Positions 1-20,843 of a stretch of DNA of 64,000 bases are shown here, in pieces. Location: the NCBI GenBank assembly GCA_018417955.1, contig JACTVC010000009.1, forward strand, positions 62,001-126,000, written 5' to 3'. Origin of the DNA: Laccaria trichodermophora. Taxonomy: Eukaryota; Basidiomycota; Agaricomycetes; Agaricales; Hydnangiaceae. The position numbers were made by a program, and so were the translations under genes. A model generated the notes under the pieces. It was given only the letters and a program-made list of their open reading frames with translations, did no database searches and had not been told where the DNA came from. The stretch's first letter is position 1. The number at the start of each line of letters is the position of its first letter.

Positions 1-1279
1 AGCTCTTTAAGATACAACGAACACCACAAAGTGGCGACGACGAGTTCCTAGAGCCACTCAGCTCAGTGTTGCCGAAGTCCTTCGAGACTATGGTCTGCAG
101 TACCGCAGCTGCCGAAATGCTGTTGTAGAAGGATCATATGGGGGTGGTAGTGGAAAAGAGACTGGAGGTCTGAGGGATTGAAAAGAAAGTAATAATCGTT
201 GCCTACTTTAGACAGTGTTATGATACTTCAAATTATATGTATAATCTTCTTCGTCAACACCGTTATTACCATCAGAAAGAGCTCCATAGTCCTCAATGCC
301 ATCGTCATTGTCACTCGAGTTTTCTTCACCTTCTCCACAAGCTTCTGCGCGTCGCTTTGGGGAAGTTGGATGAGTCAAGGTTGGCTCAAAGATCCACCAA
401 GGGAGCCAATATCGTTGAATGGAGAGCCAAAAAATAAACATATAGTATACAACAACCCATGTTGGTCATTTCAAGATGTTGGAAGAAGAGAACTCGATGG
501 AGATGGCAGGAAGGGTGCGATAAACGCCGGAGTTTCGGGTACTTCACAGATTGGTTCTAATTTCTTGAAGGATCTGATAATTTGAACGTTGTTATCCATT
601 GAGGTTGAGGTTGTCATCTAATACGAATGGAATTTGAGGTGGTAGATGGTGTTACAAGGTTTTAAACGCGTCGAGAGTTCTGAGGGCATCTCTCAATATT
701 GACGCGACGCGTTTCAAAGTCCGCACTTTACATAAGCATTTTCTGACGCGGTTTTGGGGGCGCGGTAAAAACAGGACTAAACACAACGTACTATTACGAA
801 ACTTGAGTTCCTTTGCGAGCTTCGAGAACTTGAGGCGAATGTCGTCTCCGCCATCCTGAATTTTGAGCTTTCCCCATGCTGGCTTTATAGAGAGAAGCTT
901 TGACTTTAATTGTGCGGTCTGAGAGCCCGTAAGCTAGTGAATATATGTCGTGATGCGTTGTCGAAGGTCGTCATCTGGTTGAAAGGACTGCCGACCTGGA
1001 GTCTTCACCGGTACTATGTGGCTTTCATCTAGCGAGATACCAATTAAATCGGCCAATTTGTTCAATTGATATGAAAGATACTCACATCCCGGAATCTGCC
1101 TTTCACTTCAACTAAGGGTGTCAGATTTACGGAGAGTGCTTTCGTTGCTGATCAGACCCCAACCTGGCACGAACAAACATGCTTCGCAAATTTAATAATA
1201 ACTGAGACTTGGGATCTAGTCACGTGGTCGCTACATCTCTTGACTTCAACCTCGATGTCTGGCGCTCGCATCCTCTCCA
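1..1279. other. Region without a recognisable gene
   Basis: No open frame here reads like a conserved protein and no convincing exon chain was found. The only structure noted is a short interrupted inverted repeat at 664-714 (listed separately). The stretch may be intergenic or the flank of a gene that starts outside the window. Confidence 0.5.
664..714. repeat. Short inverted repeat with ACGCGT cores
   Basis: AAACGCGTCG at 664-673 is mirrored by CGACGCGTTT at 705-714. A second inner pair (GAGAG / CTCTC) lies between them, so the segment can fold into an interrupted hairpin. ACGCGT also matches the yeast MCB-type cell-cycle element, but no gene start is close enough to argue for a promoter role. 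The repeat is seen directly; any function is unknown. Confidence 0.4.
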
Positions 1280-2627
1280 AACATCCTTGCTCATAGAAAT
1301 GGCTCCAGATCATGGCAATCACGAGAAGGATAAAAGGAAGACGATTCACGAAGCACAAGTAGAATAGCATTGGCAGAGGCGGCAAGCAAAATCAACCATG
1401 AGGTTCGTACGTTTCTTCACTTTCAAATCTTCAGGATACTGAGTGGCAGGGACATGAAATCAGGAAAACAACATCAGAAGCACCCAAATCCCCGAAGGTC
1501 TGAGAGAGGGATCTCATTAAGGATGCTGGTCAAGCTGGCCATGACTGGAACCTTCAGCGTGCGATGGGCCTATCTGGCAAAGATTGGCAGTATGCTTTGA
1601 TCAGGGTGCGTACGATATGAATCTCAAATGTATGAGGTTTAATTTCTCGCATACTTGGTTTCAGGCAGTTGAATTAGCAAGAAAGCACGGTGCGTCTATG
1701 GTATGTGAATTTCTGATGTTTTTTGCTGCATATATGCGCTCATATTCTATCAGGTGCAAGAGAAAATCAAGTCGCCTGCCAGTTTCACAATGGCTGGCCG
1801 GCGCACGAACTAATTCAACAAGATCTTACAAACCGTGTCAGTGCGCTTACACGCTATATTAGCGAGGCGCTTTGCAAGAGCTATGCAGCAGTGGAGAGGA
1901 AAGCAGTGACAGTGAAGGAGGTCTTTCATCAGTGGTGAGGACGTGGTAGATGGGCCATCGGTCTGGACGAGGAAGGTCAATTTGGTAAGTTTGGGCTAAA
2001 ACACGAGCCTTGTGTGCTGATCTCGTTGTGGTGTGATGAACTTTCTCCACCTCTCGCCCAGAAATTCAAGCCCGCTTCGTATACGAGAGCTTCAAGAGCC
2101 AACTTGGATCAAGATTTTTCACACCTTACAATTCAATCTGCTCGACTGGACCCTGTCTAACACTCTTACTGGGGATAGTGAGTGGATCGGGGACTACGCT
2201 TGTGACACTCACTTGTTCTGCTAGCTACGCGGAGAGTGGCGTGGTTGTCATTGAGACGACTCTTCTGCGCATGTTTCCCCCAGCTTCAACCTCTCTAACG
2301 GCCTTCATTACAATGGACTTGGCCTCCTTTTTTAGAATCTTTCTTGTTCCTTTCGTCGCCGCAAACTCGATTCCACAGGATAAGCTTTCACCCGAGCAGG
2401 CGTACACAACGATGCTCGAGAGCAGGAGGACTGAATTCTCGGTCTATGCGCATGAAGAGAGCGAAGAGGATTTCGACGCGCTGACCTATCAAGCTTTTAG
2501 TAAAGCCGACGCAGCGCGCATAGTGGAATCCCAGTGTCCGTCATCAAGGACAATGAGCTCTGCACCCTCGTCACCTGAGCCTTTTGTAGTATGTGTTTCT
2601 CATGGCCTTCTCGTCCGCATCAATTAA
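1280..2627 (+). pseudogene. Possible decayed multi-exon gene, unidentified
   Basis: Several short blocks look like exons. One ends at about 1606 before GTGCGT. The next reads AVELARKHGASM (about 1666-1701) and is bounded by a TTTCAG acceptor and a GTATGT donor. A third begins after CTATCAG near 1755. Joined in frame they give a chain that stops at about 1812. Further downstream a frame open from about 2061 to 2627 encodes a hydrophobic, Ser/Thr-rich stretch followed by an acidic tail. I recognise no domain. In-frame stops upstream (for example near 1369) and the lack of a clear start suggest a gene remnant or a very divergent gene. Treat the limits as approximate. Confidence 0.25.
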
Positions 2628-2630
2628 CGG

Positions 2631-3161
2631 CCCAAACAAGACTTCTCAGCATGGTGAAGGCCGCTCGCGCTGGCCGGGACGTATGACTCGGTCTCGGTCT
2701 CGTTTGGCCCAATAACTTTTTGTTTTTGCTCTCCTTTGTTGCTATACACCCTCTGGCTGTTGTTGCCCATCAGATAGAAAGCTGTAGTACATTTTTTCGG
2801 ATGCCTACCCTGTAAAGAAAATCAATGTGTAAAGTACCACTTCAATGCAGAACACGTTTACATTCATTGTCGTTCTGGCTGAAAAGCAACGTGTCCGACT
2901 ACCATACATACTGTGCACCATGAAAAGCAGAAGTTTCTAACACATTGTTCATCACTGCTGATGACATTGATTTTTCAATGTCACTACCGACGTGTACCGT
3001 CTTACACACTGATTTTCATCAGTTTCTACACTGAGTAGCAACGACTTTGACGATGATTTTTACCCTAATTACTTCCCACAGTGTGTACGAATTACGCGAC
3101 GACTCATGAACATCGTATGCATTTGATGACGTGATGCGACAAATTCTGGTATGCAACTTCC
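2631..3161. other. Intergenic region upstream of COG3
   Basis: AT-leaning sequence without a coding-like frame. Its 3' part must contain the COG3 promoter and 5' UTR. No clear TATA box or other core element was singled out. Confidence 0.5.
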
Positions 3162-6100
3162 ATGACCTCAAACAGACCTCAACGAAAGGGCCAAACTCCG
3201 ATTCCTCTTCCTCTCCACCCTTCACCAGCATCCGCTTCCAAGCAAGTTATCAGCGTCGAGGAATGGGAAGCCAAAGCACCTTTGGGAGATCTCGAAATAC
3301 GGAGCATCAACGCAATTAAGGCGGCCACAGAAAAAGTGCCTTACCCCCTCAAGGTGACCACCACATTGACATTTTGACGTGTCAGAACCCTGAATGATTG
3401 AATGTAGTTCGCTGAAGAAGATGACTGTTCAGCTTCAGGTTCTGTAACGCCGATTACCCAGCAACAACGGAACAAGCTGGTGGCTTCAGCTTCCAGCTCT
3501 GGATCTCGTCCCTCGACTCCTTCAGGTCGTTCAAACGCTCATGCCTTACATCCTAAACAACCTATCCAGACTCCACAGCAATTCTACGACTGGTTCGCCT
3601 TGATTGACCGTTCTGTCGCGCACAGCCAGGAGTCGCATTTCCGCACTCACGTCGCCAGCGTCTCGGAACACTTGAAGACGTGTGATTTGCTGCTAGATAG
3701 GATTGCTGAGATTGATAGGGAGGTCGATGGGATGATGGAGGGTTGGAGAGGTGTTGAAGAAGGTGGGAAGAACTTGAAGGATGCTTGTGAGCGGCTTTTA
3801 GAGGAACGGGTGAGTGTCCACGGCCATGTCGCAGACTTTTGACGGCTAACTGTGGTATAGGATAGGCTACTAGAGCTCACGGACGATATTGACTCGTATT
3901 TGGAATACTTCCAGGAGCTGGAGCCGGCAACGAGGATGCTCAATCATCCTGGGGAGTCCCTCATCTTCCAAAGTGACTTTTTGTACATGGTGGAACGAGT
4001 TGACATTTGCATCGATTTTCTCAAAAGCCATGTCAGTCTGCTTCGCCCTTGTTACGGCCAATGAGTCTAATGTGCTTTCAAGAGACATTTCAAAGAATCG
4101 GAGGTCTACCTCTTGCGTTATCAGCAATGCATGACGCGTGCTATGACACTCATCAAGATGAACTTTGTTGGATCATTGAGAGCATTATCTTCTGATGTCT
4201 CAACTCGGCTTTCTGAAAAGGTTCGTATTCAGCTAAACTTCAGTATGTTATTTTATAACACCGTTTTTAGGATGTATCACCAACAGCTCAAATGCATCTA
4301 CTTTACACTCGATTCAAGACCGTTTCAAAAAAAGTGGCTCCCCTCCTTGGGGAATTGGAACAGCGTGCCCTTGCATACCCGGACGAGCTATCTGCACTGC
4401 TATCGGAGTGCCACAGTGCCTATTTCTACGCTCGCAAACAACTACTTGTGCCTCGCATATTAGAAGAGATTAAGGGTCTCAACCCATCAAGAAGTGAACT
4501 GGTTGAGCTAGTAAGTTTGTCTCGTTCTCTGAAAAGAGTATTCAAGTTGACTTACGGTTCCAGACGAGAGCTGGTTGCAGCTACTTGAAGCAATTGTGTA
4601 CAGACGAGTTCAATCTTTATCGAGAATTCTTCAGCACGGCTGAGGATCAGTTATAGTACGTCTCAAATCACCTCCAATTGACGACTCGTTGAATCATATT
4701 CACACAGTCAGTATCTTGAAACACTTTGTGATTTCCTCTACGACGATCTTCGCCCACGCATCCTCCACGAGCCTCGTCTTACAGCGCTTTGTGAGGTCTG
4801 TACTGTCCTCCAGGCCCTTATGGTATTGGATGCTCCGTCATCATCATCCTCGATGGTATTCTCTGCGAATGACGATGACGACGAAAGTGGTGATGATGAC
4901 GACGCTGGTCGGAGCGAAGATGATGAGGATGACGACGTTGACGAGCTCACGATTGATCTCGACAATCCTCATCCCAAGGGCAAAGGGAAGGTCGGTCGGC
5001 GACTGCACATCAGTCATCTACTGCAGATGGTACTGCAAGATGCACAAACGCGTCTTTTTTTCAAGGCGCAGTCGGTCATTCAGAGTGATATTCGCTACTA
5101 CGTTCCGAAGGCTGAAGATCTCGCATATCCCGATATCCTAATTTGTCAGTGCTGCCGCATCATTTACAAAATGTTCAACTCCCTGATCTTCTATGTCAGC
5201 TGCAAGGAAACCTCAATCTGGGAATGAAATCCGCGAGAAGGAGAGCGTGAGCGAGATATTCCAACTTCCTTCATTGGATAAGCAGGATACTTGGTACCCG
5301 ACCATGCGCAAGATGGTATGGGTTCTTTCACAGTTGCATGATTTTGTGAAGGTTTGTCATGATTTGCAATTCCTGCTCTTTTGACTGATTTCTGTTTAGC
5401 CTGCCATTTTCGACGATATTGCGCAAGAAGCCGCGAATCTTTGTCGTCAGTCCTTAGTTGCCGCATCCGAGGCGATTAAGACACGTAGCGGCCTGGATGG
5501 CCACCTCTTCCTTGTGCGAAACCTTCTGATTTTGAAGGAGATCACTCGAAATTTGGACCTGGATCAACGCAACACGATCGAACCTTCCAGTAGCAAATCA
5601 ACAACGGATTTTGGTGGGGTGACGGGTATGTATCTACATTCCCTTCTGATGAAAGATCCTGGCTGATTGGATGTTCTATCAAGAAACCTTCGCAAATCTA
5701 CTAAGCAGGACAACTTCAATGTTGCCTGATGGATTATTTGCCTCTCTTGGCGTGACAAGAGGGGAAGACGGTATCCGCGGGGTCAAACATGTAATTTTAT
5801 CCTCGTCCTATTCACATTAGACTCATGCTCGAATTTTCAGGGAATTGACCATGATCTCAGACGGGCGTGCGAAAATGTCATTTCTGTTTCTGTTGACTCC
5901 ATCTGCGAACCCCTACAGTCTTGGGCCGAACGGATTCATGCCTACAAAAATGTACCCCCTTCTCTTGAGAAGCAGAACGACGGACGTCCTCCACCCGGAC
6001 CTCTGTCGGAACAGGTCTGGGCATCCCGCTCTGCTGCTGAAAGTCTGAACCTCAGCTTCAGAGAAGCATGCGAACGTGATATGCGTTCGAGTGTTGCAAG

Positions 6101-6317
6101 GCTGCGGCTATATCTAGAGGACGATCGCACCGTGCGTGTGCTGGTGCAACACATGCAAGACCGTATCATGGACGCATATGCGGCATATCGGGAGGTTGTG
6201 TGGGGCATGTACGCTGGCGCTTTGAGGGAGAGAGAGGGAATTCTGAGCCCCGTGGGTCTGAGAGAGGTTTTGAAGGATGTTTGTGGAGAGGTGAATGGCG
6301 TTGACAAGATATCATGA
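3162..6317 (+). CDS. COG3: Conserved oligomeric Golgi complex subunit 3 (Sec34-like)
   Basis: COG3 belongs to lobe A of the COG tether, which acts in retrograde vesicle traffic within the Golgi. The spliced product is about 870 residues. It opens MTSNRPQRKGQTP with a Ser/Pro-rich tail. The Sec34 domain follows: QFYDWFALIDRSVAHSQ near residue 95, then a coiled coil of SEHLKTCDLLLDRIAEIDR type, then DIDSYLEYFQELEPATRML and DFLYMVERVDICIDFLKSH. About eleven exons are visible. The first two are 3162-3353 and 3408-3809, the third starts at 3861, and they join in frame with GT-AG borders. An Asp/Glu-rich insert (about 4870-4955) lies in the middle of the protein, where metazoan COG3 is, as far as I know, less acidic. 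The gene stands alone, with no partner COG subunit nearby. The end at 6317 follows an unbroken last exon of about 160 codons. Confidence 0.9.
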
Positions 6318-7531
6318 TGGTATATCCCTTCTTGCTTTGGCCTGAGCAGATTATGGATCGGAAAGTGTGCCGTACGTGGATCTGCCTCACTACTTGTTCA
6401 CGATGAGGAAATGCTTATGATGATACACGATTGGCTGGCCTTCTTTGTGCAATTTACGGACAATGAATCAGCCAGCCGCCAAATCAACGGATTTCTCTCC
6501 TTCTATTCATCAAACCAGGGTGTCGGTCCTGGCCCGACTCGTTTCCTATCACTAGCGGGCCTCGCGGTAACAGCACCTCGATGTCCATGTTTAGCCTGAG
6601 CCACTGCTACTATATCTAATGCTCCTCAGCAAGACGGAAGTTCGTCTTCTAGAAGTTCCCCAGGGCTTTGTTGTTGGACTGAGTTTTCTCGCGAAACACC
6701 TCATGGTCCAGCAAGACCAACGCTTCTAGAAGCTTCTTTTGGACTTTTTGCTTGACTCCACTCTAAATATTCTCGCGAAACACATCTTCCAGGCTCGCGG
6801 TCAATCAGTAATGGTCAGTCCGAACTCCGGAAAACACCTGGAAAACACCGTCACCGACCAAAGACAAGCGAACCTGATTCAAATGCGACGGACTTAAACT
6901 TACTGAACCGCCCGAATGGCATAAGAACGCCCTTCTCACTGCTCAGTACAACGTGTTATGCCAAGTCTACCTCAACTCAGTGATCCTCGTTTAATCAGTT
7001 GACCGAAAAGTTACCAAATCATTGCATCATAGAGTACGTTATTCTCTTGCAAGGAAAATCCGGGGCTCGCCGATGAAATAAGGGGCATGAATTGCATCAT
7101 ATGGCATTTCAACGACAAAACCCACGAACCTTTTAGAAGCGCACAAAGTCCAGAGTCGCAGCACCGAGTGACGATCAAAATCAAGAAAACGGGGCTACTT
7201 TGAAGTTTGACCAGGGACAACAACATTATATTTGACGTCAAAGGACCATTACAACGCAACCAGGCGGTTCTAATTCTTCTACCTTGATCTATCCAAAACA
7301 TAATACATTTAGTTATTACACCGCAAATTGAGACCACCACGGAAAATGTAAGGGAGCCGCTAGCGGCGTGATAGACGCGCGAAAGATGTATCACCCCGCT
7401 GCACGCGGGCCGAGCTCTGTCAAAGGCTTCTAGGAAGATTGTCGAAAAGTTGGACCGATTCGAAGGTCATTAAATAGCAGTGCCCCATCCAGGGTTCGAG
7501 TCGGTGAGAGAAAAAGAGAGCTTGGATATGT
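6318..7531. other. Intergenic region with no supported gene
   Basis: Apart from the heat-shock-like sites at 6641-6736, nothing coding was recognised. A minus-strand frame at 7011-7394 is open for 127 codons, but its product has no recognisable pattern and no exon partners. A GGTTCGAGTC block at about 7493 resembles a tRNA B box, but no A box or cloverleaf surrounds it. Confidence 0.5.
6641..6736. promoter_or_regulatory. Heat-shock-element-like sites in a partial repeat
   Basis: 6724-6736 reads TTC-TA-GAA-GC-TTC, a perfect three-unit nTTCnnGAAnnTTC heat shock element. A second site at 6647-6659 (TTC-TA-GAA-GT-TCC) matches except in the third unit. The two sites are 77 bp apart. Both are followed by a TCTCGCGAAACAC block (from 6687 and from 6771), so an imperfect repeat of about 80 bp seems present. 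The nearest gene start is not adjacent: COG3 ends at 6317, and the downstream minus-strand gene starts at 8423. The motifs are seen directly; HSF binding is inference. Confidence 0.4.
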
Positions 7532-8423
7532 CTAGTTTGTGGCATCCTGAGCTGCAGCAACAACGATTGATCCGAGTTCGATGACAACGCCGTTCAGTTG
7601 GGATATAACGTCAGCTGATAGGGCGTTCGCTGGGGCCGCAGCTGGTGATGATGAGGAAGTAGCAGGTGTTTTTGTCGTTGTCGGCGTCGGTGTTGGCGTT
7701 GGCGTTGGCGTGGGTGTAGGAGTTGTCATTGTTGTCGTTGTCGGCGTCGGCGTTGGCGTCTTTGTCGTTGTAGGCGTTGCTACCGGCGTCGTTACAGCAG
7801 TAGTTTGCGCTGAGCTACCAAAGTTCCACGATCCATAAATGATACCAACGGATTGATCGGCGAAATAGCTAAACAGTCCACGAGTGAGGTCGAGGCCACC
7901 ATAGGGACATCCAGGACACTGATGGCACAACGCGTCAGATTGACGCCCAAGCTATTCACTGAAACAGGAAGGTACCAAGTCTGTAATTTGTGCCTGTGTA
8001 CTCTTGCCTTGATAAGAAATGGTGATTGTTTGGAAACAATGTGCACCCCCGTCCCATTGCTACAAGGATTCATTGTTAGCATTGTCCTCCCGAAGTAACA
8101 ACACAATACTCACAGCAGCGTTCAACGCCACGATCTATGCCACGCGAAATGAGTTCATAAGTGATCGACTTGGGGGTGACAACGATCGAGTTGCAACTCA
8201 CAAAATCACTGCCTGAATTCGTTTTTCCACAAGCGCCGAGTCCAGCGTCATAGAAAGAAAACTTCCCATTGTCGAAGCGTTTCTCCAGCGTGACCAAGTC
8301 GCGATGAGTGGCGTTCACCGAATCCCTCTTAAGAACGTAGGGGATCGAGGGAAGAGCGCGTACTGCCGGCAATACAGCAACAAAGGAGAAAAAAGCCGCG
8401 ATGATAGAAGAAAGGTAGCGCAT
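7532..8423 (-). CDS. Secreted RlpA-like double-psi beta-barrel protein
   Basis: Four exons join in frame: 8423-8202, 8134-8114, 8059-7976 and 7918-7532, giving about 237 residues. The start (MRYLSSIIAAFFSFVAVLP) is a signal peptide, with an LPSIPYVLKR segment that could hold a Kex2-type cleavage site. The double-psi beta-barrel follows: FSFYDAGLGACGKTNSGSDF, then IVALNAAQWDGGAHC, then ITISYQGKSTQAQITDL, then CPGCPYGGLDL. This is the usual order of cysteines and glycines in fungal RlpA/expansin-like proteins. The last third is a Thr/Pro repeat tail, probably O-glycosylated, and ends in a hydrophobic helix that might be a GPI or surface anchor. Such proteins are secreted and often developmentally or stress regulated; the substrate is unknown. 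Exon 2 is only 21 nt long, so it is easily missed by gene callers. Confidence 0.85.
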
Positions 8424-11400
8424 TGCAGAAGATGTCGTTGAGAGATCTCGTTCAATCTTCTAGTATCCTTCTATATAGGAATAGGATGGCTGGTGGGAGG
8501 GTATAGATGAATTGAGCTTCGGTGGAATTCTTTCTATAGCTGGGAGAGCTGGAAAAGCTGATGGAGTGCGGGATCTATCGTCGTTTGAAGGATAGTAATA
8601 AGAATTCTCGGAAGCTATGAGGTCACAGACGCTTGAGCGACACACGAGATTGGACGGAATGTGGGGAGGAGAAAACCAAAAGACCAGACGCTTTAAAGGA
8701 TTCCGGACATGAAAAAAGGACAAAGGGCGTTGGCAGGGACACGCGTTCCGAGCGAGGGTTGCTTTGGGGTTGTATCTGGTTGCATGTGGAAATAGGAAGG
8801 CGGTGTGATGAGTCAGGAAGATGAACCGCTCTTGCGGCAACTTGCAAAACGCGTGTTGAGCAAGTTGAGAAAATATCCGGCTGCTGTCAAAAAAGGGTTG
8901 CGGGACCCTCGATTTTCAAAACGCGCAGCCATAGGCAGCATCTGCCATCACCCAAAAATATATCAGATGTGATGCTCGTCACTTGATAATACCGGATTTT
9001 TGTTCCGGATGATGGATTCAATCCCGAGGATAATCTTTGAAAACCCGAATGAATGAAAGATAATCAGTTGAAATGGTGATTAAAAATATCAGGTTTTTAC
9101 CGCCGGCTAGGTAGAGAGCGTGGCAAGGAGCGTGGACTTCTTGGTCTACTATTTTGAGGGTGCCGCAGCGGGGTCGGCCGAAATTTGAAAGGTATTAAAC
9201 ATGCATTTCTTGCGAGGCGTGCCTTCAAGATTTAAATGAGGGGAGCATTCACGGAATTCCAAATTCGTGACAATGATGGATGTGCCAAGCGAAAGCGGAA
9301 AGACAGCACGGGGGTTGGTCGGGAATTGTTCCGAAAGCTCCTGCCAAACAACTGCAACACACCTCAGCCAATCGCCGCTCGCTTCACAAGGGAGTTTTCC
9401 GCAAGTTTTCCGTCTTCAGCGTCACCCTCCTGATCATGAGCTCCAAGTAGAGCGCTATGAGCCCCTGGGGAGTTGCTGTGGAAGTCCTTCCTTTGAAGAT
9501 GGATACATTGATCGTCAGCTGTCCGTACAATCCGGATTGACTCTGATTTTGTGGAGAAAAAAAGGTGTTACCTTCGTTCAGCTCAAGATATCTTTTTGGA
9601 TCTCTTATTTTGGTGACGTTTTGGAAGTACCAGAAAATGCATCCCTCCCTGCTTCCGCAGCAGTTCGGATAAATCGTACTTGAGTCCGTTACGCCGTATT
9701 ACACCAAACTATCACTCTGGACTTGGGGTGTAACAGCGCGGGTGAAAGGTTTCCTCTACCAACTCTTCCTCGGGTCCGTACAGACGCAGGTCTGCGCACA
9801 TTTGTTTGGATAACCCACGCCGGCGAGAAACAACCAGCCAAGAGTCCATAAATCGTCAAGGCAGTGAACACTACCACCATGGAGCTCAGCGCTCAACTCG
9901 CAAATGATGAGACTTGGTTATGCACCCGGTCCGGTCAACCTTTGTCGGTTCCATTAAAAGTCTTCTCGCGATGGAGAGAATCGACCGTGCGCGCGTGATG
10001 CAGGCTGACGGAAAGTTGACACCTTTGTGTGATCATCCTGCAGCGAATTTGACTGATGTTTGTGCTCTTGGCTATTCTCTGACGTGTCTGAAACATTGTA
10101 AGGCTGTTTGTTGAATCCAGCTCACTTTGTGCCTTTAGGTCCCAGGTGCAGATTTGCCGCCACCATCACGTCGAAGTCCATAGTATACCAAAAAGTCACT
10201 GACAGAATTCAACAGGTGAAACATCAAGCCCAGTGAAAACCTGCTCTGGGGGGGTCTGGAAATATCCGTGAGAAGCCGGCCTAAGCTGGACCTCCAGAAA
10301 TCGCCGGCTGAAGCCAGTTTTTGTCCGCTTTCCAGAAAATATCTGGCTCACGCTGGAGGGTTAGAAGATGGTTCGCTTTAGGTTTTGGTCAAATCTCCGG
10401 CTGCTTCTGGCCTTGACTGGGCTATTCTGGGGTGGACCGTTGTGGGCTGGAAAAATCTATAATTATATTCTACCCTATTGTACACAATATGATCTGGTCC
10501 CTTCTGGCCTCTGTCTGGCGATATCCGCGTCCTACCGACCATGCCCACATCCCCAATCCACCCACGCTCTCAATCCTTCGTCAGCAGCCACATATCCCAG
10601 CTCCCCCATCCTACGTTGCAAGCCATCGTCTCCTAGCAGCTGGTGGGAAAACACGGCCGTCAGGCCCTCTTTGTGCTAGCTCTCGCATAAGATTAGATTA
10701 GAGCAAAGGGAAACACGTCTGAACACACCTGATTGCGTGACAATCGTATGAACGACATGTAGAATTGAACTTGGCCTTTCAAACCCGAGGTCGTGGCGCG
10801 GCGCTCATCCCGACTCGAGCTAGCTAGAGAAAAGATGGTGATTCGCGTTGTGGAAATGCGTAAGAATGGGGATGGCGAATCCACGCACCGCTCATACATT
10901 CAATGTCGTGCTGCCCAGGTGGTGGTGCAAAAGCCACTGGAGCATCCCAAGCACTGTCAGCAAAGAAGGAGGCACGTAAGGCGCATACATTCACTCACCA
11001 TCGCGTCAACCAAGCGCCACTCTCAGCCATAAGAATATCCCGGGTTGGACGCTACACAAACGGAAATGCCGTCGCATAAAGCATGGGAAGAGGATGGAGA
11101 CGTCGTGGCATATGGGGACGTCGTGGCATATGGGGAGGAGATGGTGGTAGGGGAAGGAAGAGAGTGGCGACGAATTCAGAGAACGCACAATGGATTCTTT
11201 GTTGCTTAGGTAAAGCTTTCCCAACGCAGAGCATGAAGGAAGCGCTCAGTGGGATAAACCTGCTGCTTGGACATTGCTTGGACATTTGCTTAGAGGAAAA
11301 ACTGGAGAAGGATGACTTAGAGAAATTTTGTAATTGACTTGGCTCGGAACATCCAGATATCTACGGTAGTGCCCAGAAAGAATAGTTGCGTCGAAGTCAA

Positions 11401-11737
11401 ATCGAAGTTGCCTCGGACCAACTTCAGACTATCCCGGACGACGACGGCTGACGCCAGCAAGTTGGCCGTTTTCTCCAGATTCCTCCAGAGCAGGTTTTCA
11501 CTGGGCATCAAGCTCAGGTCAGCCTCGTGCTGATCTTATGTGTATGCAGAATAGTATATAGATTGCTAGCGCTATATTACAAATGGACAAATAGGAAACA
11601 AACCGAGAGCAAGAAGAGAGCGTGAACCGGAAATGTGACCACTACAGACAAGGATACGTCGAGCGCATCCATCGCGATTACTCGGACCACCTATCCACCC
11701 ACGGATAATTGGATAGATAAATACGATACGCCCCTCG
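8424..11737. other. 3.3 kb stretch without a recognisable gene
   Basis: Many short frames are open (for example 9267-9683 and 10368-10679), but none resembles a known family or forms a consistent exon chain. The part at 10240-10440 is rich in CCGGCT and TCTGGAAATAT-like words in both orientations, which hints at an old repeat without clear ends. A 17 bp unit ending CGTCGTGGCATATGGGG is tandemly doubled near 11090-11130. The proximal part near 8424 must hold the promoter of the minus-strand secreted protein. Confidence 0.5.
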
Positions 11738-13389
11738 TTAGGCTGTTGTTGCATTGTTGAAGATCAACAAATTTACGGTTCGATCTGGAAGGTCCGTGAG
11801 GAGGTTCGGGCTCGAAAGCTTGAGCAATGCTTTCTTCAGCTGAAGTGGCGTGAGCGTCTCAGGCTTCTTGGGGATGGGGGCAACGATGGCGTCCACTAAG
11901 GAAGGTGGTGGAAGGAAGTTAGAGATCCATTGTGGCAGAGCGGCGTGGGCAACGCTGTACACGGAAGACGGATGACGGAAAATGCGCTCGCTCTGGAGAG
12001 AGATGACGTTGAATTCGCTGTCGAAAGTAGGATCGAAAGTCTCATCAGGGTAGATGGACAGAAGGTAAGCGAGGAGACCAGCGGTGTGGGGAGATGCCAT
12101 AGAGGTACCGGAGAGTGTAGAGGTGGCTGTGCGGCCTCCCTTGTAGGTGGAGAGGATATTCAGGCCTGTCACATTATGGGCACAGATGCAGGGGCTAAGA
12201 AAATAAGGTCACTTACCAGGTGCGAAGACATCAACGCAAGAGCCATGGTTGGAAAAATAGGCGCGCTCATCACCAAGGGTTGAAGCACCAACGGTTACAG
12301 CATTCTGGGCAGCAGCAGGGCTGTAGTTGCAAGCATCCCTGTTGTCGTTACCTGAAAAAGGGTTGAGTAAAAGGTGTGGGGCACCATTTATTCATACATA
12401 CCTGCGGCAACAGCGAAGTGAAGTCCACCGTTGACGGAAGCGTTGATGGTTTCATCAAGAGCGCGCGACTTGCCACCTCCAAGACTCATGTTAGCTACAG
12501 ACCCCTTATGCTTCGTCTTTCCAGTGGCTTGATATTCAGCTAGAGCTTTCTCGGCATTGGCCTTGGCCTGAGTCGCTGCCCAGCTGACGCCACCAACAAC
12601 GTCGGACATGGTCCCGCTACCATTCGAGCCAAGGACCTTGACAGCAATAACATTGGCTTTCTTGGCGACGCCGTACTTGCGAGAAGCAATGGTACCGGCA
12701 CAGTGAGATCCGTGGCCATTTCCATCCTCGTCAACGTCATTCTGTGGGATGGTCTTTCCCCAGGTTGCACGACCTTCAAACTCGACGTGATCGATGTTGA
12801 TGCCAGTGTCAACGACGTAGACGTCAACGCCTTCGCCGCCACGCTCGTCATACTCGTACTTGGTGAAAGTGCTGAAAGTAAGCCTGGGCCTGTGGCTTAT
12901 ACGTGCAAGCCCCTAGTTACAGCAGACTGTAAATTATATGGTCACAAGATCCGGTCACTGATGACTCACCCATGGAGCAGTCCTCTGTACCTCCATGGTG
13001 CGAACGATCTGGTCCTTCTCAATGTAATCTACCTCCGGCATGGTCCTGAGCTGCTCGACAACACCCTCTGTGAAGCGGCCAGCATATCCGCTGATATGAC
13101 CGTCATAGACCTGCTGAATACCTGAGATATCGGCAAACAGAGGGTCTGCATCATGCACGTTCTGCAAGAAATTGAGATGGTTCTCCTTGAGCGCTGGAGA
13201 AAGGTCCTTCTTCAGAATGACAATGTATGAATTGTTAACACTGCCATGGGGGTGGTGCTCAGCAACAAGAGGAGCGAGCGTTAATGAGGAGCGTTGGGGA
13301 ATAACATGAGGGGCGGTAGAGAGAGGGGTGGAGAGGGCAGAGGAAACGAAGGAGACGGCCAACAAGGACCACTGAAGTAGACGGGTCAT
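11738..13389 (-). CDS. PRB1: Subtilisin-like serine protease, cerevisin (PRB1) type
   Basis: A peptidase family S8 protein, probably a vacuolar or secreted endoprotease. The start at 13389 gives a signal peptide ([19 protein letters not shown]). An inhibitor I9 propeptide follows ([14 protein letters not shown] through [14 protein letters not shown]). The catalytic domain shows Asp in YVVDTGIN, His in [15 protein letters not shown], the oxyanion Asn region FAVAAGNDN, and Ser in [15 protein letters not shown]. The block [20 protein letters not shown] is typical of cerevisin-like enzymes. Three short introns interrupt the gene (about 12896-12970, 12355-12402 and 12189-12219). A C-terminal extension of about 90 residues ends [10 protein letters not shown]. 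Vacuolar protease B orthologues share this layout; a secreted paralogue remains possible. Confidence 0.88.
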
Positions 13390-14129
13390 GGTGGTTGAAA
13401 GAAGAGAGGGGTAACAGTCATTCACTCAAGATAACGAGCAATTGGTGTTGACACTTGTTTATTTACCCGCTGCTGCTTCCGCAGCCTCAGATCGCCATAT
13501 TCAGTCTTTGTGCAGCCAAAACTCCCGTATCTACTTGAAAGCACGCAATATCCGAGCACGCTAATGCTCTCTGTCGCATTTTGTCTTCAAAAAACTACCA
13601 CGGCGACAGTTCTATAGGCCACGTCACCAAAACGAACCATCGTCGTGACCGTGGGTTACAACGTAATTTACTTACGCCGAACAGCGCTCAAAACCCCAAA
13701 TTTACAGCACTGCATCACATAGCCGTAAAAGACGAAAGAGACCCTAAAAACGGTTGCGGCTTGCAGTGAACATTGAGCTCGAAAAGCAGTTTCGAAATGA
13801 CCGAGGTACTTAAGCTCTTCGCTATTGCTCCAAGCCCAGGCATTGACTATACTGTTATATTTTTAGAAAACGCACTTACATTGTGTTTTCACCTGTGCGG
13901 GGTTAATCAACAATCTGTCTTTCATCGAAATCCAACGAACTTTAGCACTTCAAGATATCAAGCATCGCATATTTTCTACGACCACCGGGATCCAGAGGTT
14001 TATCACAATCCATGGACATGCTCTAGACACAAGTCACGCACATCGCGCCGGCGCCTAAGTTGAAATTGGACAGTTTCAGGTACCATCGCACGTTCAGACG
14101 GTAATTGAACCTCTTCGCTCTACACCACC
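13390..14129. other. Divergent intergenic region (protease / G-domain gene)
   Basis: No gene recognised. It lies between two divergently transcribed starts (13389 minus, 14130 plus), so it holds both promoters. No specific operator motif was singled out. Confidence 0.5.
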
Positions 14130-16813
14130 ATGTCCCTATCCTCCGGAAGTACTAGCTGGGGCAGCCCCTGCGTTGAGATTTCCGGTATGTCCTACGTTCA
14201 AACCGACATCGAGTGGCTGGCTGACTCCCATTAAACAGACATATCTATCTCCACTTCGGATGAGCTTAAATCAATCGACCTGTCAATCGGATCGTTCAAA
14301 CAGACGTCACCGTGTCTACTCGGCACAAAGGCTCACAAGATCGTCTTATCATCACCCTGGTGAGCCATTCATCTTGCATGGAACTTGGACGTCGTTTTGA
14401 ATGCTACCAGCCAGGTCTCGCCCTCAGATCCACTCATCCTCAAGGTCAACTACCGAAGTTGGAAAAAGCTTGCATCGAAGAACCAGATTTATCAGCGTGA
14501 ATTGCTGGAGAAAGCGGGGCCTCAGTACGTGGGGAGACAAGGTGCCTTTGTTCTGGCCGCTTTCACCTTCGCGTTTCGATGACATCTCCCCAACGCCAGA
14601 GTGGTCTAAATCATATGATAAAGTGAATGTCGTCCTCGGATTGACAGTTTCCCCTCCTTCCGCAGTACGTATCGCTCCCTGTTTAATGCACATTCACGTA
14701 ATAGTGCAACAGGACAGATCAACTAGCGCGGGATCGTCAACGGGTGATTTGCGACCGACAACTGATGCGATATTCAAACTGGTGGACCGGTAAGTGTAGG
14801 CTCTCCGCGTTGAACTGCTTCTCAAGTTCTTACGTTGCTAGTTTCCGGGTGCTGGTAATCGGCAAGGTCGTTTAGTTCGTTCATGTTCAGGTGGTGCTTA
14901 CAGCGTTTGCTTATAGACCGGTGCGGGGAAATCATCTCTCATCAATCGATGTTTTGGTGTCACGGAAGCGGTGAATAAGCTCTCGTACTATCTCTTTCGA
15001 CCTATGAAACTGACATTGTTTAGGCAGTGTCGGAGTATCAGGCAGGCATATCAGACATCAACACCGCTATCATGGCCCGGGAAAACGGAAGATTCGTTCT
15101 GCACGATAGTCAGGGTTTTGAGCCTGGAGAGGACAGAAACTTCCAGACAGTGGTCAACTTTTTGAAAGCCCGCAAAAATATGCCAGATGTTAAAGATCAG
15201 GTTCACGCTGTCTGGTGAGTTCAATAACTCTTCATTGCTTTTTTCATAAATATGACCGTCGATACTTTGTTAGGCTATGCTTCCCTGTGCCACTATCAGC
15301 GGACGAACGTTTGTTCGAAAGAGGCGTTGAAGAATTCTTCCGTATGAAGGCCACTGGAGAACTTGGTCCTGGTCAGTTTTCGACCTTCCTTGTTTAGATG
15401 GGTGCTCAATCGCCGCCTCAGTTCCCATAATCACAATCTTTACGAAGTACGATACACTGGTTGACGAGATCGAGTATTCCCGGGACTTTCGAAATCGCAC
15501 GAGGGCGTTGGACAAGGAAACTCGAAGCAAACTTCTTATCGAGGAGACAAAGGCGATGTTTCAAGAGCTTTGTGTTCTCCCCTTCGAAGGGGCTGTTGGT
15601 TCAGACATCCCACATATCGCTGTTTCGAGTACGATTCACTCAAGCAAAAGATGAGCTTTGCTGACAGTTATTGTAGCGAATGAAGAGTACAAGGAAACGA
15701 GCAAGACTTTACGTGAGCTGGTGAAACTCACTGCTGACTATGTGAAGCAATGCCTATCTGTTGAGGTTGCAGAAGAGGTCGCGGTCCTGTCAGCCGTAGC
15801 TCAACGGATCAATCCAGCAGTGAAAATTGATGCAGTGATCGCGTGAGAGTATCAACTTCTTCAGGAGACTTTTCTGACATGATGTGATTGAAGAGTTGGG
15901 AAGAAGCGTACGCATTTTCTCTGGCGCGTCACAGAATCGCTACCTGATCGCTCTACCTTTCTGTTATCAGGTTACTGGCGGGGCCTCGCCTCCAGCGCAA
16001 ATTTTCCGGGGAAGACTCTAGAAGCATGCCTTCAAGTTTTACATGCGGATATCGTCCGCATTTGGAACATCCAGGACGACTTTGCGGTAATACTGCATAC
16101 ATCTTATCCACTCCTTGCCGTACTTACGATGTGTTCCCTGTAGTTCATGGAGAGCAAGGAATTTAAGGCGCTGATGATGGGGCTCGTCGGAGAGCAATAC
16201 GACAAGCTAGCCAACCCTAACATCATGATGTAAGATCCCATTGTCTCTGGCTTTTCACAGCACGCCAATACCAGCTCGGTAGTCCCGCCTCATTGTCAAT
16301 GTTGGGTTCCCTTGCCGGAATATTGGCGGCCTGCGCTGGACCTGCTGTTCCTATTGTGCTTCCTATAGCTGCAAGTCTCGTCGTTGCGAAATGGGCATAT
16401 GATGTGTATAAGCAATCGTATGTTTTTCAACTCTCTTGTTATACTATCGAGTTTCATCAAACACATACAGACAGCTCACGCTACAGCGGCTAATGGCGTA
16501 CATCGTCGACCTAACCATCATAATGCAGATCATCTTCGGTCTCGTCGTGAATGCTCAATTGCGTCTTTCTCGCCGTCTCATCAAACTCGCCTTCACGACA
16601 TTCAGCGAATCACGGGAAAGGGTGCAAGTTCACAACGAGATCAAGGAGCACGTCAAGCAGGCTGGACGTGCTGACAGGGATGCAGCTCTTGCTAAGATCT
16701 TGCAGTTGATCGAGAGCTATCGCATGAAGTCTGAGGATGTGGAAGAGTTGCAGAGTAAGATGGCGGGGTTTGCGAATATTGAGGATGAGCCTTGGGTGGT
16801 ACCCCACCCTTAA
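14130..16813 (+). CDS. G-domain membrane protein with N-terminal C2-like region (paralogue 1)
   Basis: A P-loop GTPase of the kind expanded in Agaricomycetes. The N-terminal part is beta-rich and C2-like (LKSIDLSIGS, later VLNATSQVSPSDPLILKVNY). The G domain follows. G1 is TGAGKSSLIN (about 14919-14948), G3 is LHDSQGFEPGEDRNFQT, and G4 is TIFTKYD (about 15430-15450). A helical region comes next (ELVKLTADYVKQCL) and then YWRGLASSANFPGKTLEACL. The C-terminal third has a hydrophobic segment rich in Ala/Val/Ile (GILAACAGPAVPIVLPIAAS). A second membrane segment is MAYIVDLTIIMQIIFGL, followed by an amphipathic helix that ends DEPWVVPHP. Many small introns break the gene; exact borders in the N-terminal C2-like part are uncertain. 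The biological role is unknown; GTP binding and membrane association are inferred. Confidence 0.75.
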
Positions 16814-17035
16814 TTTGCGGTCGAATCATCCACGTATTGTAGTTGCATCTTTTACAGTTTTTAGGTTGTTGAAGTATTCCTCACTTTCAACAATCACGTC
16901 CAGGTTGCTGTTCCTAAGAGCTCGTTCAGCACGTGTCAATCACCACCCAGCGCATACTGGCGCCTGGCGCCCGCTTGTGCTCTAACTATCAATTCTTACC
17001 TGCACCATCGAAGAGCCTTCAGCGGCTACATCAAG

Positions 17036-20000
17036 ATGTTTCACTCGTCTATGCTTCCGAATGCGACTATATGGGCGAGCACAGTTCGCAAGGAGATCCG
17101 CCGCTTCCGTATCCTTATTGTCGGCCGAGCGAACGCTGGCAAGACAACCATCCTCCAAAGGGTTTGTAACACGACAGCGTTGCCTGAGATAATCGCGCCG
17201 AACGGTGACAGGGTATTTTGCGTGGTTTGGTTGAAGGACACTTTTGAAATATGTTTCCTTTGTTAGATCGACTTGTCCACGATCAGCCCGTCCGCCCAGG
17301 TGCGCCTCATTTTTTTGAATTTAATTTTCTTCCCACCACCCGGCTTACAACGTCTACAGCGCGGGGAACATGATATCGAGAACGAAATGGTGTTTAAAAG
17401 CAACCCAGGCTTTGTCTTCCATGACTCGCGTGGATTCGAAGCTGGCGGTTCCTCTGAGTTCCAGACGGTCAAACAATTTATCGCAAACCGCGCCGAGCAG
17501 AAGCTTTTGTCTGATCGACTTCACGCCATCTGGTCTATAAATTCCTGTCCCATCTGATGATAATGATAATGATTACCTTCATCTTAAGGTACTGTATTCC
17601 TACAAACGATGCTACCCGGCCAATCACGAGAGCCGAATTGGATTTCTTTGAGGAGTGTGGGACGGGAAATGGCAAGTAACTGAGCAACATTGATTTGGAG
17701 AATTATTTGACTGTTTTTCAACTATAGTACCGGTGATCGTTCTGTTTACCAAGACTGACTCAATGGATTCCCGCGCGACGAAACAACTGATTAAAGAAGG
17801 ATATACTGATGAAGAAGCCGAACAACGGGCACCAATACAGGGAGTCATTGACTTTCAGGAACGCTTCTGTGGCATTCTCTATCAAAAGAAACATCCTCCC
17901 ACATCTCATTTATTTTTTCGAGGTACAATTTTTTATTCTTGTCATTCTATATTTGATCCCGCCTTCTATAGAAATGCAGCACCCAGAGGCTGATGTTGGT
18001 GACCTAATCAAGTCTACTGCAGAAGCACTTGCATCAGATAAAAACTTGCTACAACTATTTGTCTCGACACAACAGACTAGTCTCAACTTGTGCATTGAAT
18101 ATGCAATTAAACGGCAGGCTGCTTCATTCTCTTTCTCCTCAATTCATTATTGATGGTAACATCAGAGACTTGCTAGATAAGCTCAACACTCTTTCTGCTT
18201 TCCAAGAGAGGCTTCTTTCCACAACAGAAAAAAACAATGTCAGACTTGTCTTGCCTATATTGCAGTGGTTCCCACATTTGGTCAGGCCATTACTTTTTTT
18301 ATTCTCACATACCAATACTTCTCTGATAGGATGTAAGTGATGCTTTGATATCTTATGTAATTCTCTAATCATATTTTGCAGTGTGTAAGTGGGCTCTACA
18401 ACATAACTGCTCAACTTCTCTTTACTTGTCATTTTCCAGACTGTGAGTGGATACTCTCTGATTCAATTTCATTTACCTTTTTATTCTGACATCTTGAATA
18501 GTATGTATGTTGGTCACTTACCACTCTTTAGCTCTTCTTTGGCTAAACAACTAAAATAGATGGCAAGTTGAGTTTCAGAGCTTTATCTTATAATGCTGAT
18601 ATCATGTGCTTACTCTTGAGGCTGCTCCAGTAAGTCCTAGAATAATTGTTGTCTTGCACTGTACTAATTATCTTTCTTCAGACTGTAAGTATTCTAAGTT
18701 AGTTTAATGACCTTTGATTTTGAAGCTAGGTTTTTCAACCATAGGTGCATGTAAGTTATTATTCATGTGTCTATATCATTTCCAATGCTTATCATCACTT
18801 TTTATACAATGATAGAATGTATGTATCAAATAACTTCTGATGATGCTTCTACTCAAAACTTCAACAGATGGTAGGCCTTGAAAGTATTATATTTGTAGTG
18901 GTGTTATTGACTCTGATGTTTAGATTGTGAGTTAAATTATCTTGTAGAGATGTGAAACTGACATGACATCATTTTTATCTAGCCTGTATGTTGAAGATTA
19001 CTTGCACTATAGAATAGCACTAATTTTTGACAGGCTGTAAGGCATAAAACTACTGATTTTTTGTATAGCCTCAATTATTATTTTGATAGCCTGTGGGTTA
19101 CTCTTTTTCAGTACTTCACTTAGGCTGATCTTTTTTAGCCTGTATGTGCAGCATTATCTATGTTACTGATGATATTAACTAGTGTCTGCTTGTGCAGTAT
19201 GTGAGTACATCTTTAAATTTGTCTATTGGATCTTGACTGACAAGTGCTCTACTAGAGTGTAAGTTGAAATTTTTTATATCTGTGCAACATAATCTTGACT
19301 ATTATTCAAGTTTAAAGGAACTGTAAGTATTGCTTCTCTGACACCTTGAATACAAGAAATTCATATTTCAATAGGATCTTGGTGTAAGTAATTACCTGAA
19401 CCTAGTAATCAAAAGGTTCTAAAGTTTTTTTTGGTGTAAAATCAGTGGGAGGTCATTTAGTCTGTTTCCATCTCTCACCTCTTGCTGATTTGCTGTTTAT
19501 CAATAGAATGTATGTCTAAAATGATGCTTATGCTAGGACTGTTGACAAAAAACCTTATCTAGGTTGTAAGTCTGTCCATTTTCTTTTGCTGAAATAAGCA
19601 TTTAGATCTCTTCAGACAGTAAGTTGGCTTTTTTTTTTTCTTGAAAAAACTATCATATTGAAATCTTCTCTCCCCTCAATTATAGATTGAGGTATGTTTC
19701 CTTTACTTTGTCTATAATTTGATGTTAAGGCACACATCTAGATTGAGAAGATTCTTGGTCTTAGATTGTGGTCAAAGGTAAGATTCAGCAATATTCCACC
19801 CTTCAGAAAGTTACTGACATTCCTTTTTCAATTGAGCTTGGAAGTCTTGGTGGCCCTCAGAAAATTGCCAAGCTTGGGATTGGTATGAATGCAATATTTG
19901 TCTTGAATATTCAGATTCAAAGAACATTGTCTTTTTCTAGCAATAGCCATCATCGCTGATTTTTCCTTCTTCCTATGGGACCGAGCACCATCAAACACTC

Positions 20001-20185
20001 ATGTGCACATGGTGCTGGCATATAAGAAGTATAAAACATCTTGCGATGAAAATGCACTTCAAGAGGTCATCAAAGAGGCTTTCAAGGATTATGACCACAA
20101 GGACTTTCCAGACAAAATGGTCAAAATTGCACTGGACTACCGACTTTGTGAGATTTTCCACTTGCTGGATTTCTCTGTCTCATGA
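17036..20185 (+). CDS. G-domain membrane protein (paralogue 2) with micro-exon array
   Basis: The tandem paralogue of the preceding gene. G1 is ILIVGRANAGKTTILQR (about 17112-17160), G3 is VFHDSRGFEAGGSSEFQT, and G4 is IVLFTKTD. The helical part reads LLQLFVSTQQTSLNLCIEYA. Beyond about 18112 the coding frame appears to shift by one base and continues as GNIRDLLDKLNTLSAFQ to LQWFPHL, ending at 18280. It then enters an array of 24 micro-exons (18330-19691). A normal exon, 19765-19879, reads IVVKGKIQQYSTLQ and ends KIAKLGI. A 61 nt intron separates it from the last exon, 19941-20185. That exon gives a hydrophobic AIAIIADFSFFLWD segment and a helical tail that aligns in pattern with the paralogue's C-terminus. 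The shift near 18112 has no obvious intron, so a frameshift or an unrecognised splice is possible. Function unknown. Confidence 0.65.
18281..19764 (+). other. Array of 25 short introns and 24 codon-sized micro-exons
   Basis: Each step has the form AG, a short exon, then GT. Micro-exons: 18330 GAT, 18382 TGT, 18440 ACT, 18502 TAT, 18560 ATG, 18621-18629 GCTGCTCCA, 18682 ACT, 18745-18750 GTGCAT, 18816 AAT, 18868 ATG, 18924 ATT, 18983 CCT, 19034 GCT, 19090 CCT, 19139 CCT, 19198 TAT, 19256 AGT, 19311-19322 TTTAAAGGAACT, 19375-19383 GATCTTGGT, 19446-19451 TGGGAG, 19507 AAT, 19563 GTT, 19616 ACA, 19686-19691 ATTGAG. Introns are 46-73 nt. Most donors are GTAAGT, GTGAGT or GTATGT; one is GCAAGT (18563), and the two weakest are GTCAGG (18281) and GTCATT (19452). 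All exons are phase 0 and none encodes a stop. Many introns carry CTAAY or CTGAY branch-like words. Splicing is inferred from sequence only. Confidence 0.7.
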
Positions 20186-20843
20186 TTTTCCGCACAACCA
20201 GCCAAGACTCCAGCTTGATACTCAAACTGTGTATGATGTTTTTGAGGTACAACTTTTTACATTCTCTACCGCTCTTCATCCAACCTTTTGTTCTTGTCAC
20301 AAGTGCTTACCAAGGCCATACTTCTAGCCATTCTATTAACAATTTGCCGATTCTATTTCTGCATACCAGCTTTATCTTCTGGCAACCTCGTGGTGGATTG
20401 TTCTTACCCCTCAAATTTTTATTACCATATCTTTCGTATTTCGTCCGTGTATTTCCAGTTCCATGCCATATATTCGACACCTCTGTGCAACATGATTCTG
20501 GGAAGGTGACCAACTGATCTTTACCGCAACTTGTCGGAGGCGTCTGTGATGTTCAGAAAATTGATGGCCAAGCCAGTAAGTCGACAACATAACATAGAAC
20601 TTTTGTAAAACCAAGAGCATAAGACGAAGAGTAGTATGCGCGGCAACAATGGAAAGAAGACAAGTCGCCCACAGTTGACTGGCGCCGGAAGTTCGTTGAT
20701 CACACGAGCAAGGTATTACCGGATTAGATAACGATAAGCGATCGAGTCAGGACCCAGAATCATGTAATGTCCAATTTTCACCAAACCCTCCCTTCAACCC
20801 CACCCTCACTCTTTTTGTTCGGAAGAACTGACATATCCCGAGT
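20186..20843. other. Intergenic region upstream of AsnRS
   Basis: No supported gene. A plus-strand frame at 20182-20517 is open for 111 codons but its product is hydrophobic low-information sequence. The AsnRS promoter and the 3' end of the G-domain gene must lie here. Confidence 0.5.

Follow-up and report, generated by a model that had tools for sequence, protein, structure and literature searches.

The DNA analysed here, referred to as the window, is a stretch of 64,000 nucleotides from the basidiomycete Laccaria trichodermophora (GenBank assembly GCA_018417955.1, contig JACTVC010000009.1), corresponding to C77:62001-126000 in the genome searched (59.0 Mb, 77 contigs). Positions are those of the window. 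On the forward strand, between about 17036 and 20218, it carries a gene whose product, judged by its sequence, is a G-domain protein with a C-terminal helical domain; among public proteins the spliced gene product is matched best by P0001, the Laccaria bicolor S238N-H82 model LACBIDRAFT_313263 (97% identity, covering 67% of the query). Inside this gene, from 18281 to 19741, lies an array of 25 introns and 24 micro-exons, with a GC content of 33% compared with 48% in the window. The array very probably is coding: all 25 introns are likely removed and the 24 micro-exons joined into a single in-frame linker of 34 residues, since a public protein which is likely derived from a transcript carries exactly those residues in the same order.

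The micro-exons comprise 18 exons of one codon, three of two, two of three and one of four codons, adding up to 102 nt or 34 codons without any stop; all 24 are multiples of three nucleotides (3n) and lie in phase 0. They were obtained by listing AG / 3n / GT steps and then joining them, and each was matched to the public protein P0121 described below; micro-exon 5 was placed by joining and by this match. The array begins with GAT (D, 18330-18332), TGT (C, 18382-18384), ACT (T, 18440-18442), TAT (Y, 18502-18504) and ATG (M, 18560-18562), the latter followed by a GC donor, GCAAGT, at 18563. These are followed by GCTGCTCCA (AAP, 18621-18629), ACT (T, 18682-18684) and GTGCAT (VH, 18745-18750); micro-exons 2, 3, 4 and 7 are found joined in P0001 as well. 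Further single codons are AAT (N, 18816-18818), ATG (M, 18868-18870), ATT (I, 18924-18926), CCT (P, 18983-18985), GCT (A, 19034-19036), CCT (P, 19090-19092), CCT (P, 19139-19141), TAT (Y, 19198-19200) and AGT (S, 19256-19258), leading to TTTAAAGGAACT (FKGT, 19311-19322), GATCTTGGT (DLG, 19375-19383) and TGGGAG (WE, 19446-19451). The last four micro-exons are AAT (N, 19507-19509), GTT (V, 19563-19565), ACA (T, 19616-19618) and ATTGAG (IE, 19686-19691). The introns measure 46-67 nt, the last one being 50 nt, and the retention of any single one of them generates a stop or a frameshift (25/25). Some donors are weak, for example GTAGGC at 18871 and GTCATT at 19452, directly after micro-exon 20. Among the single-codon exons, 15 of the 18 end in T.

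The first-pass annotation of this DNA, made from the letters alone, had already proposed the same number, sizes, phase and freedom from stops of the micro-exons, and the step listing and joining reproduced them. Its count of 25 introns also stood, while the size range it gave, 46-73 nt, had to be narrowed to the one reported above. It had placed the end of the array at 19764 and IVVKGKIQQYST in the exon that follows; by the match with P0121 the array runs only to 19741, an exon at 19742-19777 (IEKILGLRLWSK) follows it and 19778-19836, where IVVKGKIQQYST was read, is an intron. It had described most donors as matching GTRNGT; one donor, at 18563, is a GC donor.

That such a series arises by chance had been considered very unlikely, and the chain searches bear this out. 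When donors were restricted to GTRNGT or GCAAGT, exons to at most 12 nt and introns to 40-130 nt (region 18281-19743), the longest in-frame chain contained 21 exons, compared with 0 for exons of 3n+1 and 1 for exons of 3n+2, and 1000 dinucleotide shuffles gave 3n chains of at most 2. The length of this chain depends on the 130-nt limit, because the wide limit bridges units with weaker donors: with introns of up to 80 nt the longest strict chain has 9 exons, and a search with relaxed donors finds two chains of 9. If single-codon exons alone are counted, 5 are consecutive in the array, as compared with 1 in the rest of the window (1-17000 and 20401-64000, either strand). A scan that relaxed the donors and admitted exons of up to 18 nt turned up a single further chain in the window, of 7 exons, at 42335-42886; it holds one single-codon exon and looks like chance noise.

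The evidence that carries the coding interpretation is P0121, a public protein of 220 residues retrieved with the C-terminal half of the spliced protein and predicted from a single contig of 1,003 bp with the source tag 'lgn'. In this protein LQWFPHL, the end of the last ordinary exon ahead of the array, is followed by DCTYMAAPTVHNMIPAPPYSFKGTDLGWENVTIE and then by IEKILGLRLWSK. The spliced window model and P0121 are identical at 215 of 220 residues, including 34 of 34 in the array, contiguous and in order; the first-pass annotation had asked whether these codons are contiguous in related sequences, and had read them as coding pieces joined in phase 0, both of which are borne out by this protein. 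The corresponding genomic stretch, 17974-20218, spans more than 2.2 kb, so the contig of P0121 cannot contain the introns; being shorter than the genomic stretch, it is likely a transcript, to judge from these lengths. Over the 85 residues leading up to the array P0121 and P0001 are identical (85/85), which makes it likely that both belong to the same lineage. The tail of P0001, read against this genome, consists of the micro-exons GAT-TGT-ACT-TAT-ATG and GCTGCTCCA-ACT-GTGCAT joined together, with two introns kept; TGT, ACT, TAT and the later ACT are thus separate pieces joined in that model. In comparison with this genome, the tail shows changes in at least 8 of its 102 intron bases and in 0 of its 27 micro-exon bases.

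Several points weigh against this interpretation. The complete join is seen in one sequence only, P0121, which comes from one contig and is read as a protein, and its tag 'lgn' denotes assembled sequencing runs by interpretation. P0001 retains two introns as coding and terminates inside the array; all 8 intron differences in its tail fall within the intron 18563-18620, the first intron having none, and 0/27 against 8/102 is within chance. Moreover, the identity of the linker (34/34) is not clearly higher than that of its flanks (181/186), a processed, intron-free copy could yield the same protein even though none was found in this genome, and isoforms that skip units may occur. Such a processed copy, with the arrayed gene being dead, is highly improbable even though P0121 is known as protein and not as DNA, since the frame is open through all the exons used, P0121 is identical over the 85 pre-array residues to an S238N-H82 model that ends inside the array, and no contiguous copy was found in this genome, where a search with the 34-residue peptide in one piece returned nothing but a weak hit to the locus itself (E 1.07). 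Even less credible is that the block is in effect one long intron, in which the AG-NNN-GT steps act as recursive or decoy sites and leave no codons in the mRNA. Recursive splicing through recursive-splicing exons (RS-exons) is known, as described in the available text of PMC6224609, and AG-NNN-GT looks like a ratchet point with a 3-nt exon; but a pure ratchet point needs neither lengths of 3n nor freedom from stops, and a recursive, zero-exon splice site keeps no exon sequence, whereas P0121, albeit a single sequence, keeps all 34 codons. For this one transcript-like sequence the removal of the whole block by recursive splicing, which the first-pass annotation had offered as an option, is therefore contradicted. 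An array that serves length variants, with single-codon exons skipped in many combinations to give a mixture of linkers, is unlikely, though less so: since exon lengths are always 3n, the phase is 0 throughout and most donors resemble one another, skipping any unit would leave the frame intact, and transcripts of the schistosome micro-exon genes (MEG) are described as differentially spliced. Against it, the full transcript-like sequence includes all 24 micro-exons and no skipped form was seen, although this is a single molecule.

If the array is coding, each intron of 46-67 nt would be recognised singly, by intron definition, because exons of 3 nt leave splicing factors no room to pair across the exon; intron definition is the mode expected for short fungal introns. 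Neighbouring introns would be removed sequentially, because acceptor and donor overlap around a 3-nt exon. With every exon a phase-0 multiple of three, a unit could be added, lost or skipped without disturbing the frame. The linker would connect the G domain and its helical extension to the C-terminal helical domain and would tolerate change, so that intron units could multiply there.

The first-pass annotation had presented the array as a feature of one gene; the array gene was confirmed, but this description proved too narrow, since close paralogues share the structure. A search of the same genome with the G domain gave 16 matches at E <= 1.7e-16, which are separate from 25 weaker ones, and trains of micro-exons, mostly single codons, occur at the same place in 15 of these 16. 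The sixteenth, L040, shows two units near the edge of the piece examined, and about 13 kb further on there is an array, L029, that includes a C-terminal exon; the two would form one interrupted gene. Conversely, none of 14 more distant relatives (L050-L063, about 3.2 kb each, from the 25 weaker members) shows a train. When exons in chains of at least 4 were counted in the window and in L020-L033, 471 were 3n, 54 were 3n+1 and 46 were 3n+2, stops being barred for 3n only, and no stop occurs among 428 AG-NNN-GTRRGT triplets in the paralogue loci. Arrays apparently split by insertions of several kb were noticed at three places: L065/L024 (C11:80.5-83.5 kb and 73-81.5 kb), L064/L033 (C23:571-579 kb and 564.5-571.5 kb) and L040/L029 (C23:1259-1262 kb and 1243.5-1251.5 kb). 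From these positions, in each of the three the G domain and the first units would be located at some distance upstream of the C-terminal exon and the rest of the units.

Linkers of this kind can be recognised also in public proteins. Walking along the AG-NNN-GT units of L022 yields 48 single codons, the last two of which are set off by a single longer gap (5346 to 5510); this string and the linker of P0002 (LACBIDRAFT_325699) have equal length, 48, and are identical at 39 of 48 positions, so that one-codon exons apparently are already joined in this public L. bicolor model. A linker of 27 residues, of the same style and with the same flanks, occurs in P0046, a public protein encoded on a contig of 1,312 bp. 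In its AlphaFold2 model (29 sequences, mean predicted local distance difference test score, pLDDT, of 79.4) residues 247-271 have a pLDDT below 50 and overlap the linker at 240-266, which fits a disordered linker. The linker of the array genes can be read as hypervariable and probably disordered. When the linkers of six paralogues were aligned and used to search for proteins, 52 were found, of which 37 were examined; only P0121 and P0046 among these have a linker that looks spliced, and the public models P0125 and P0131 may have one as well. Of the L. bicolor models examined, many start or stop at the arrays, or translate introns as coding. P0131 (LACBIDRAFT_335310) contains the repeated string NRLFN NRLFN ahead of the C-terminal domain, which might reflect the duplication of a block in another array. 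Proteins from short public fungal contigs (P0024, P0025, P0096, P0106, P0007 and P0022) carry, at the corresponding position, linkers with an odd composition, such as DLDVLDLLRDLDVLLLL in P0025. On such sequence resemblance, the arrays may reach beyond Laccaria.

The introns of the paralogue arrays are mostly near-copies of one another and define a master intron of 67 nt. The consensus intron is identical in 8 of the 16 loci outside the window, two of which, L024 and L065, belong to one gene, and differs by one base in 4 more. The mean likeness to the master intron is 99.1% in L026 (14 of 28 introns exact), 96% in L031, 74% in L022 and 69% in L030. In the genome 347 matches to the master intron were counted; the 150 that were listed all fall at loci of the array family, with none in other genes. 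Codons follow another pattern. Between pairs of units in L026 (27 units having 67-nt introns) the differences amount to 59% at the first, 72% at the second and 15% at the third codon position, as compared with 1.3% of intron positions; per site, the first two codon positions thus vary 46- to 56-fold more than the introns. In L031 (40 units) the corresponding values are 70%, 60% and 27%, with 6.1% for the introns. The third position is mostly T: single-codon exons end in T in 354 of the 416 cases counted, 14 units of the L024/L065 overlap being counted twice. A codon of the form NNT is never a stop. Codons with a final G (TGG and CGG are examples) go together with a G at intron position +3 (a start in GTG and not in GTA) in 11 of 20 cases, compared with 19 of 338 for the others (loci L020-L032, L043, L064 and L065; Fisher p 2e-8, a test that counts units as independent although units duplicate). 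Indeed, units 13-15 and 25-27 of L023 have the same codons and the same intron changes, therefore blocks of units duplicate as a whole. When introns and G-domain exons were compared over 28 pairs of loci, the introns were clearly more alike in 6 pairs, as in L026 and L031 (97% against 91%); 5 pairs showed about the same likeness for both, and in the other 17 the introns were less alike. The secondary structure of two consensus introns is not unusual (z 0.42 and -0.36). Insertion with a 3-bp target duplication was considered as a general origin and set aside: it would make neighbouring codons equal, but equal adjacent codons number 63 against 47.1 expected, and the excess is significant in only 2 of 15 loci.

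The younger paralogue arrays, with near-identical 67-nt introns one codon apart, could represent the growing state, and the window array would be the oldest and most worn. No tandem repeats were found in the window array, unlike the paralogues, where a 70-bp repeat is visible, and its DNA matches only itself in the genome. Two points count against placing it in this series: its introns have a likeness of 57% to the master intron (6 of 25 scored) and of 60% to each other, values that show no intron kinship, and the idea of a worn array rests on its position, on its NNT codons (15 of 18 single-codon exons ending in T) and on family membership.

Neutrality of the frame would explain how an array can grow, not why introns stayed alike while codons diverged, and the two origins that can be envisaged do not cover everything. 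It is quite possible, although not yet probable, that the arrays arose by tandem duplication of a 70-bp unit, namely the 67-nt intron plus a codon, through slippage or unequal exchange, the codons being diversified later by selection or by a raised mutation rate. The whole-block duplication in L023 is consistent with it, the 70-bp spacing yields one codon per step without any added assumption, and the 17 of 28 pairs of loci in which introns are less alike than G-domain exons are what arrays ageing with their genes would give; an excess of adjacent equal codons over shuffled orders was also seen in L032 (p 0.0015) and L024 (p 0.034), both uncorrected, but not at significance in the other 13 of 15 loci. 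However, ordinary tandem duplication predicts codons as alike as introns, at odds with the 1.3% against 59% and 72% in the 27 units of L026, where intron variants and codons also assort freely by eye. Alternatively, copies of the master intron may have been placed between the codons of an older linker, either through insertion or through conversion from excised introns in RNA or DNA form, so that the introns are young and the codons old; this, too, is a serious possibility that stops short of being probable. It would account for the consensus intron being identical in 8 of 16 loci and one base off in 4, for the 14 exact copies among 28 in L026 and for the 6 pairs of loci whose introns are clearly more alike than their G-domain exons, with 5 about equal; on the other hand, the opposite holds in 17 pairs, the 150 listed matches of the 347 all lie within the array family, the two consensus introns have no unusual fold, and known introner insertion leaves the fixed 3-nt, phase-0 step unexplained. 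That L022 keeps codon number and order with respect to the S238N-H82 model (39/48) has no bearing on this, since its introns are old. As to the proposal of the first-pass annotation, repeated insertion of introns into a coding stretch of about 34 codons, repeated gain of introns fits the paralogues, while insertion into a contiguous 34-codon stretch is not shown. More tentatively, these genes might carry a new kind of genetic satellite, a 67-nt spliceosomal intron that copies itself at a one-codon step inside the linker of this one gene family and is copied or held uniform (99% to the master in L026), the codons being left out of the copying and hypervariable. If this were true, a self-copying intron with a 3-nt register would be a process distinct both from transposon-like introners and from ordinary tandem duplication, and array expansion would make linker diversity.

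Fungal introner-like elements (ILE) have a stable predicted secondary structure, which the two consensus introns of the arrays do not show. The paralogue arrays share with ILE the many near-identical copies, a likeness which the introns of the window gene (57%, 6 of 25 scored) do not have, while copies in unrelated genes are absent among the 150 listed matches of 347. According to the available text of PMC4457414, ILE are near-identical introns in many copies whose likeness is lost over time, a feature shared with the paralogue arrays; the difference is that the array copies (150 listed of 347) lie one codon apart within one gene family. The micro-exon genes of Schistosoma mansoni contain 10 to 20 very short exons, mostly of 15 bp, and introns from 100 to almost 5000 bp, as given in the accessible part of PMC10526429; likewise, they have many consecutive very short exons, mostly 3n, and are hard for automatic annotation (PMC10526429). 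The array has the run of short, phase-0 3n exons (24/24) but not the long introns (100 to about 5000 bp), and it further differs from MEG in that 18 of 24 exons are of 3 nt, it belongs to a G-domain protein and its paralogues have near-identical introns. Thus, it works like MEG, but given its introns of 46-67 nt it is not classed as one. Plant microexons of 1-15 nt are also missed by annotation, and a plant exon of 1 nt has conserved GTRAGT donors; in the text available they are single or paired, and not in trains of dozens (PMC8831610). Within the Agaricomycetes, the G-domain proteins P0001 and P0002 belong to the same family as the gene of the window; the 48-residue linker of P0002 equals in length the 48 single codons of L022, and P0001 differs from the window model in taking two array introns as coding.

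Among fungi, Fusarium is reported to have an exon of one nucleotide (PMC12940212) and Trichoderma a microexon (PMC11121469), and the accessible text of an annotation paper based on L. bicolor RNA-seq names small exons coding for fewer than 10 amino acids as an annotation problem, with a method that finds exons down to 9 bp (PMC2897884). Exons of one codon would escape such a method. No report of trains of single-codon exons in fungi, nor any published remark on the architecture of genes of the LACBIDRAFT_313263/LACBIDRAFT_325699 type, was found among the papers listed by searches of the open-access literature, and the accessible part of a review of intron evolution contains no such case (PMC3488318). 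A coding train of this kind would put normal splicing near its exon-size limit. If 24 successive micro-exons in the window, or 48 in L022, are spliced accurately, the splice unit needs no exon beyond 3 nt; with such exons the acceptor and donor of adjacent introns can hardly be held together, so the order of splicing and the meaning of exon definition become directly testable, in a mushroom genus with established laboratory use. Since the paralogues range from 99% to 69% in mean likeness to the master intron, intron multiplication and decay can be read within one gene family, and the combination of uniform introns and variable codons demands a mechanism. Gene models of such families are unreliable, as the L. 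bicolor models examined show by starting or stopping at arrays or translating introns.

The remaining exons of the gene are ordinary. The G domain, with the P-loop GRANAGKT, is encoded by exons at about 17036-17212, 17267-17299, 17360-17532, 17589-17671 and 17728-17932, read by eye along P0001 with approximate boundaries. An exon at 17972-18113 (EMQHPEADVG...EYAIKR; matched to P0121 from 17974, the first two bases being placed by eye) is directly followed by an intron of 52 nt with a GC donor (18114-18165) and by the last ordinary exon ahead of the array (18166-18280), which ends in LQWFPHL; the same join is found in P0001 and P0121. Beyond the array, the exon 19742-19777 and the intron 19778-19836 are followed by exons at 19837-19882 (LGSLGGPQKIAKLGI), 19941-20147 (AIAIIADFSFFLW, the C-terminal helical domain) and 20202-20218, all by the P0121 match; the last ends with SKTPA and a stop, while P0121 itself ends with SKTAA. 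The Pfam assignment of the window gene is based on a scan of P0001, which gave PF01926 (MMR_HSR1) at 23.2 bits (cut-off 21.9) and PF00025 (Arf) at 23.6 (cut-off 22.3); P0002 falls under both cut-offs (18.0 and 20.4) and P0046 has no Pfam match. On this basis the window gene product is a putative P-loop GTPase of the MMR_HSR1/Arf type.

Three GC donors occur in the array gene: GCAGGC at 18114 and GCAAGT at 18563, both backed by P0121, and GCAAGT at about 17672, by P0001. Directly upstream (about 14900-16810; match C77:77045) lies a second G-domain gene, in which the chain scans found no train of micro-exons; it belongs to a distant subfamily and has a different C-terminus, which by eye looks membrane-spanning.

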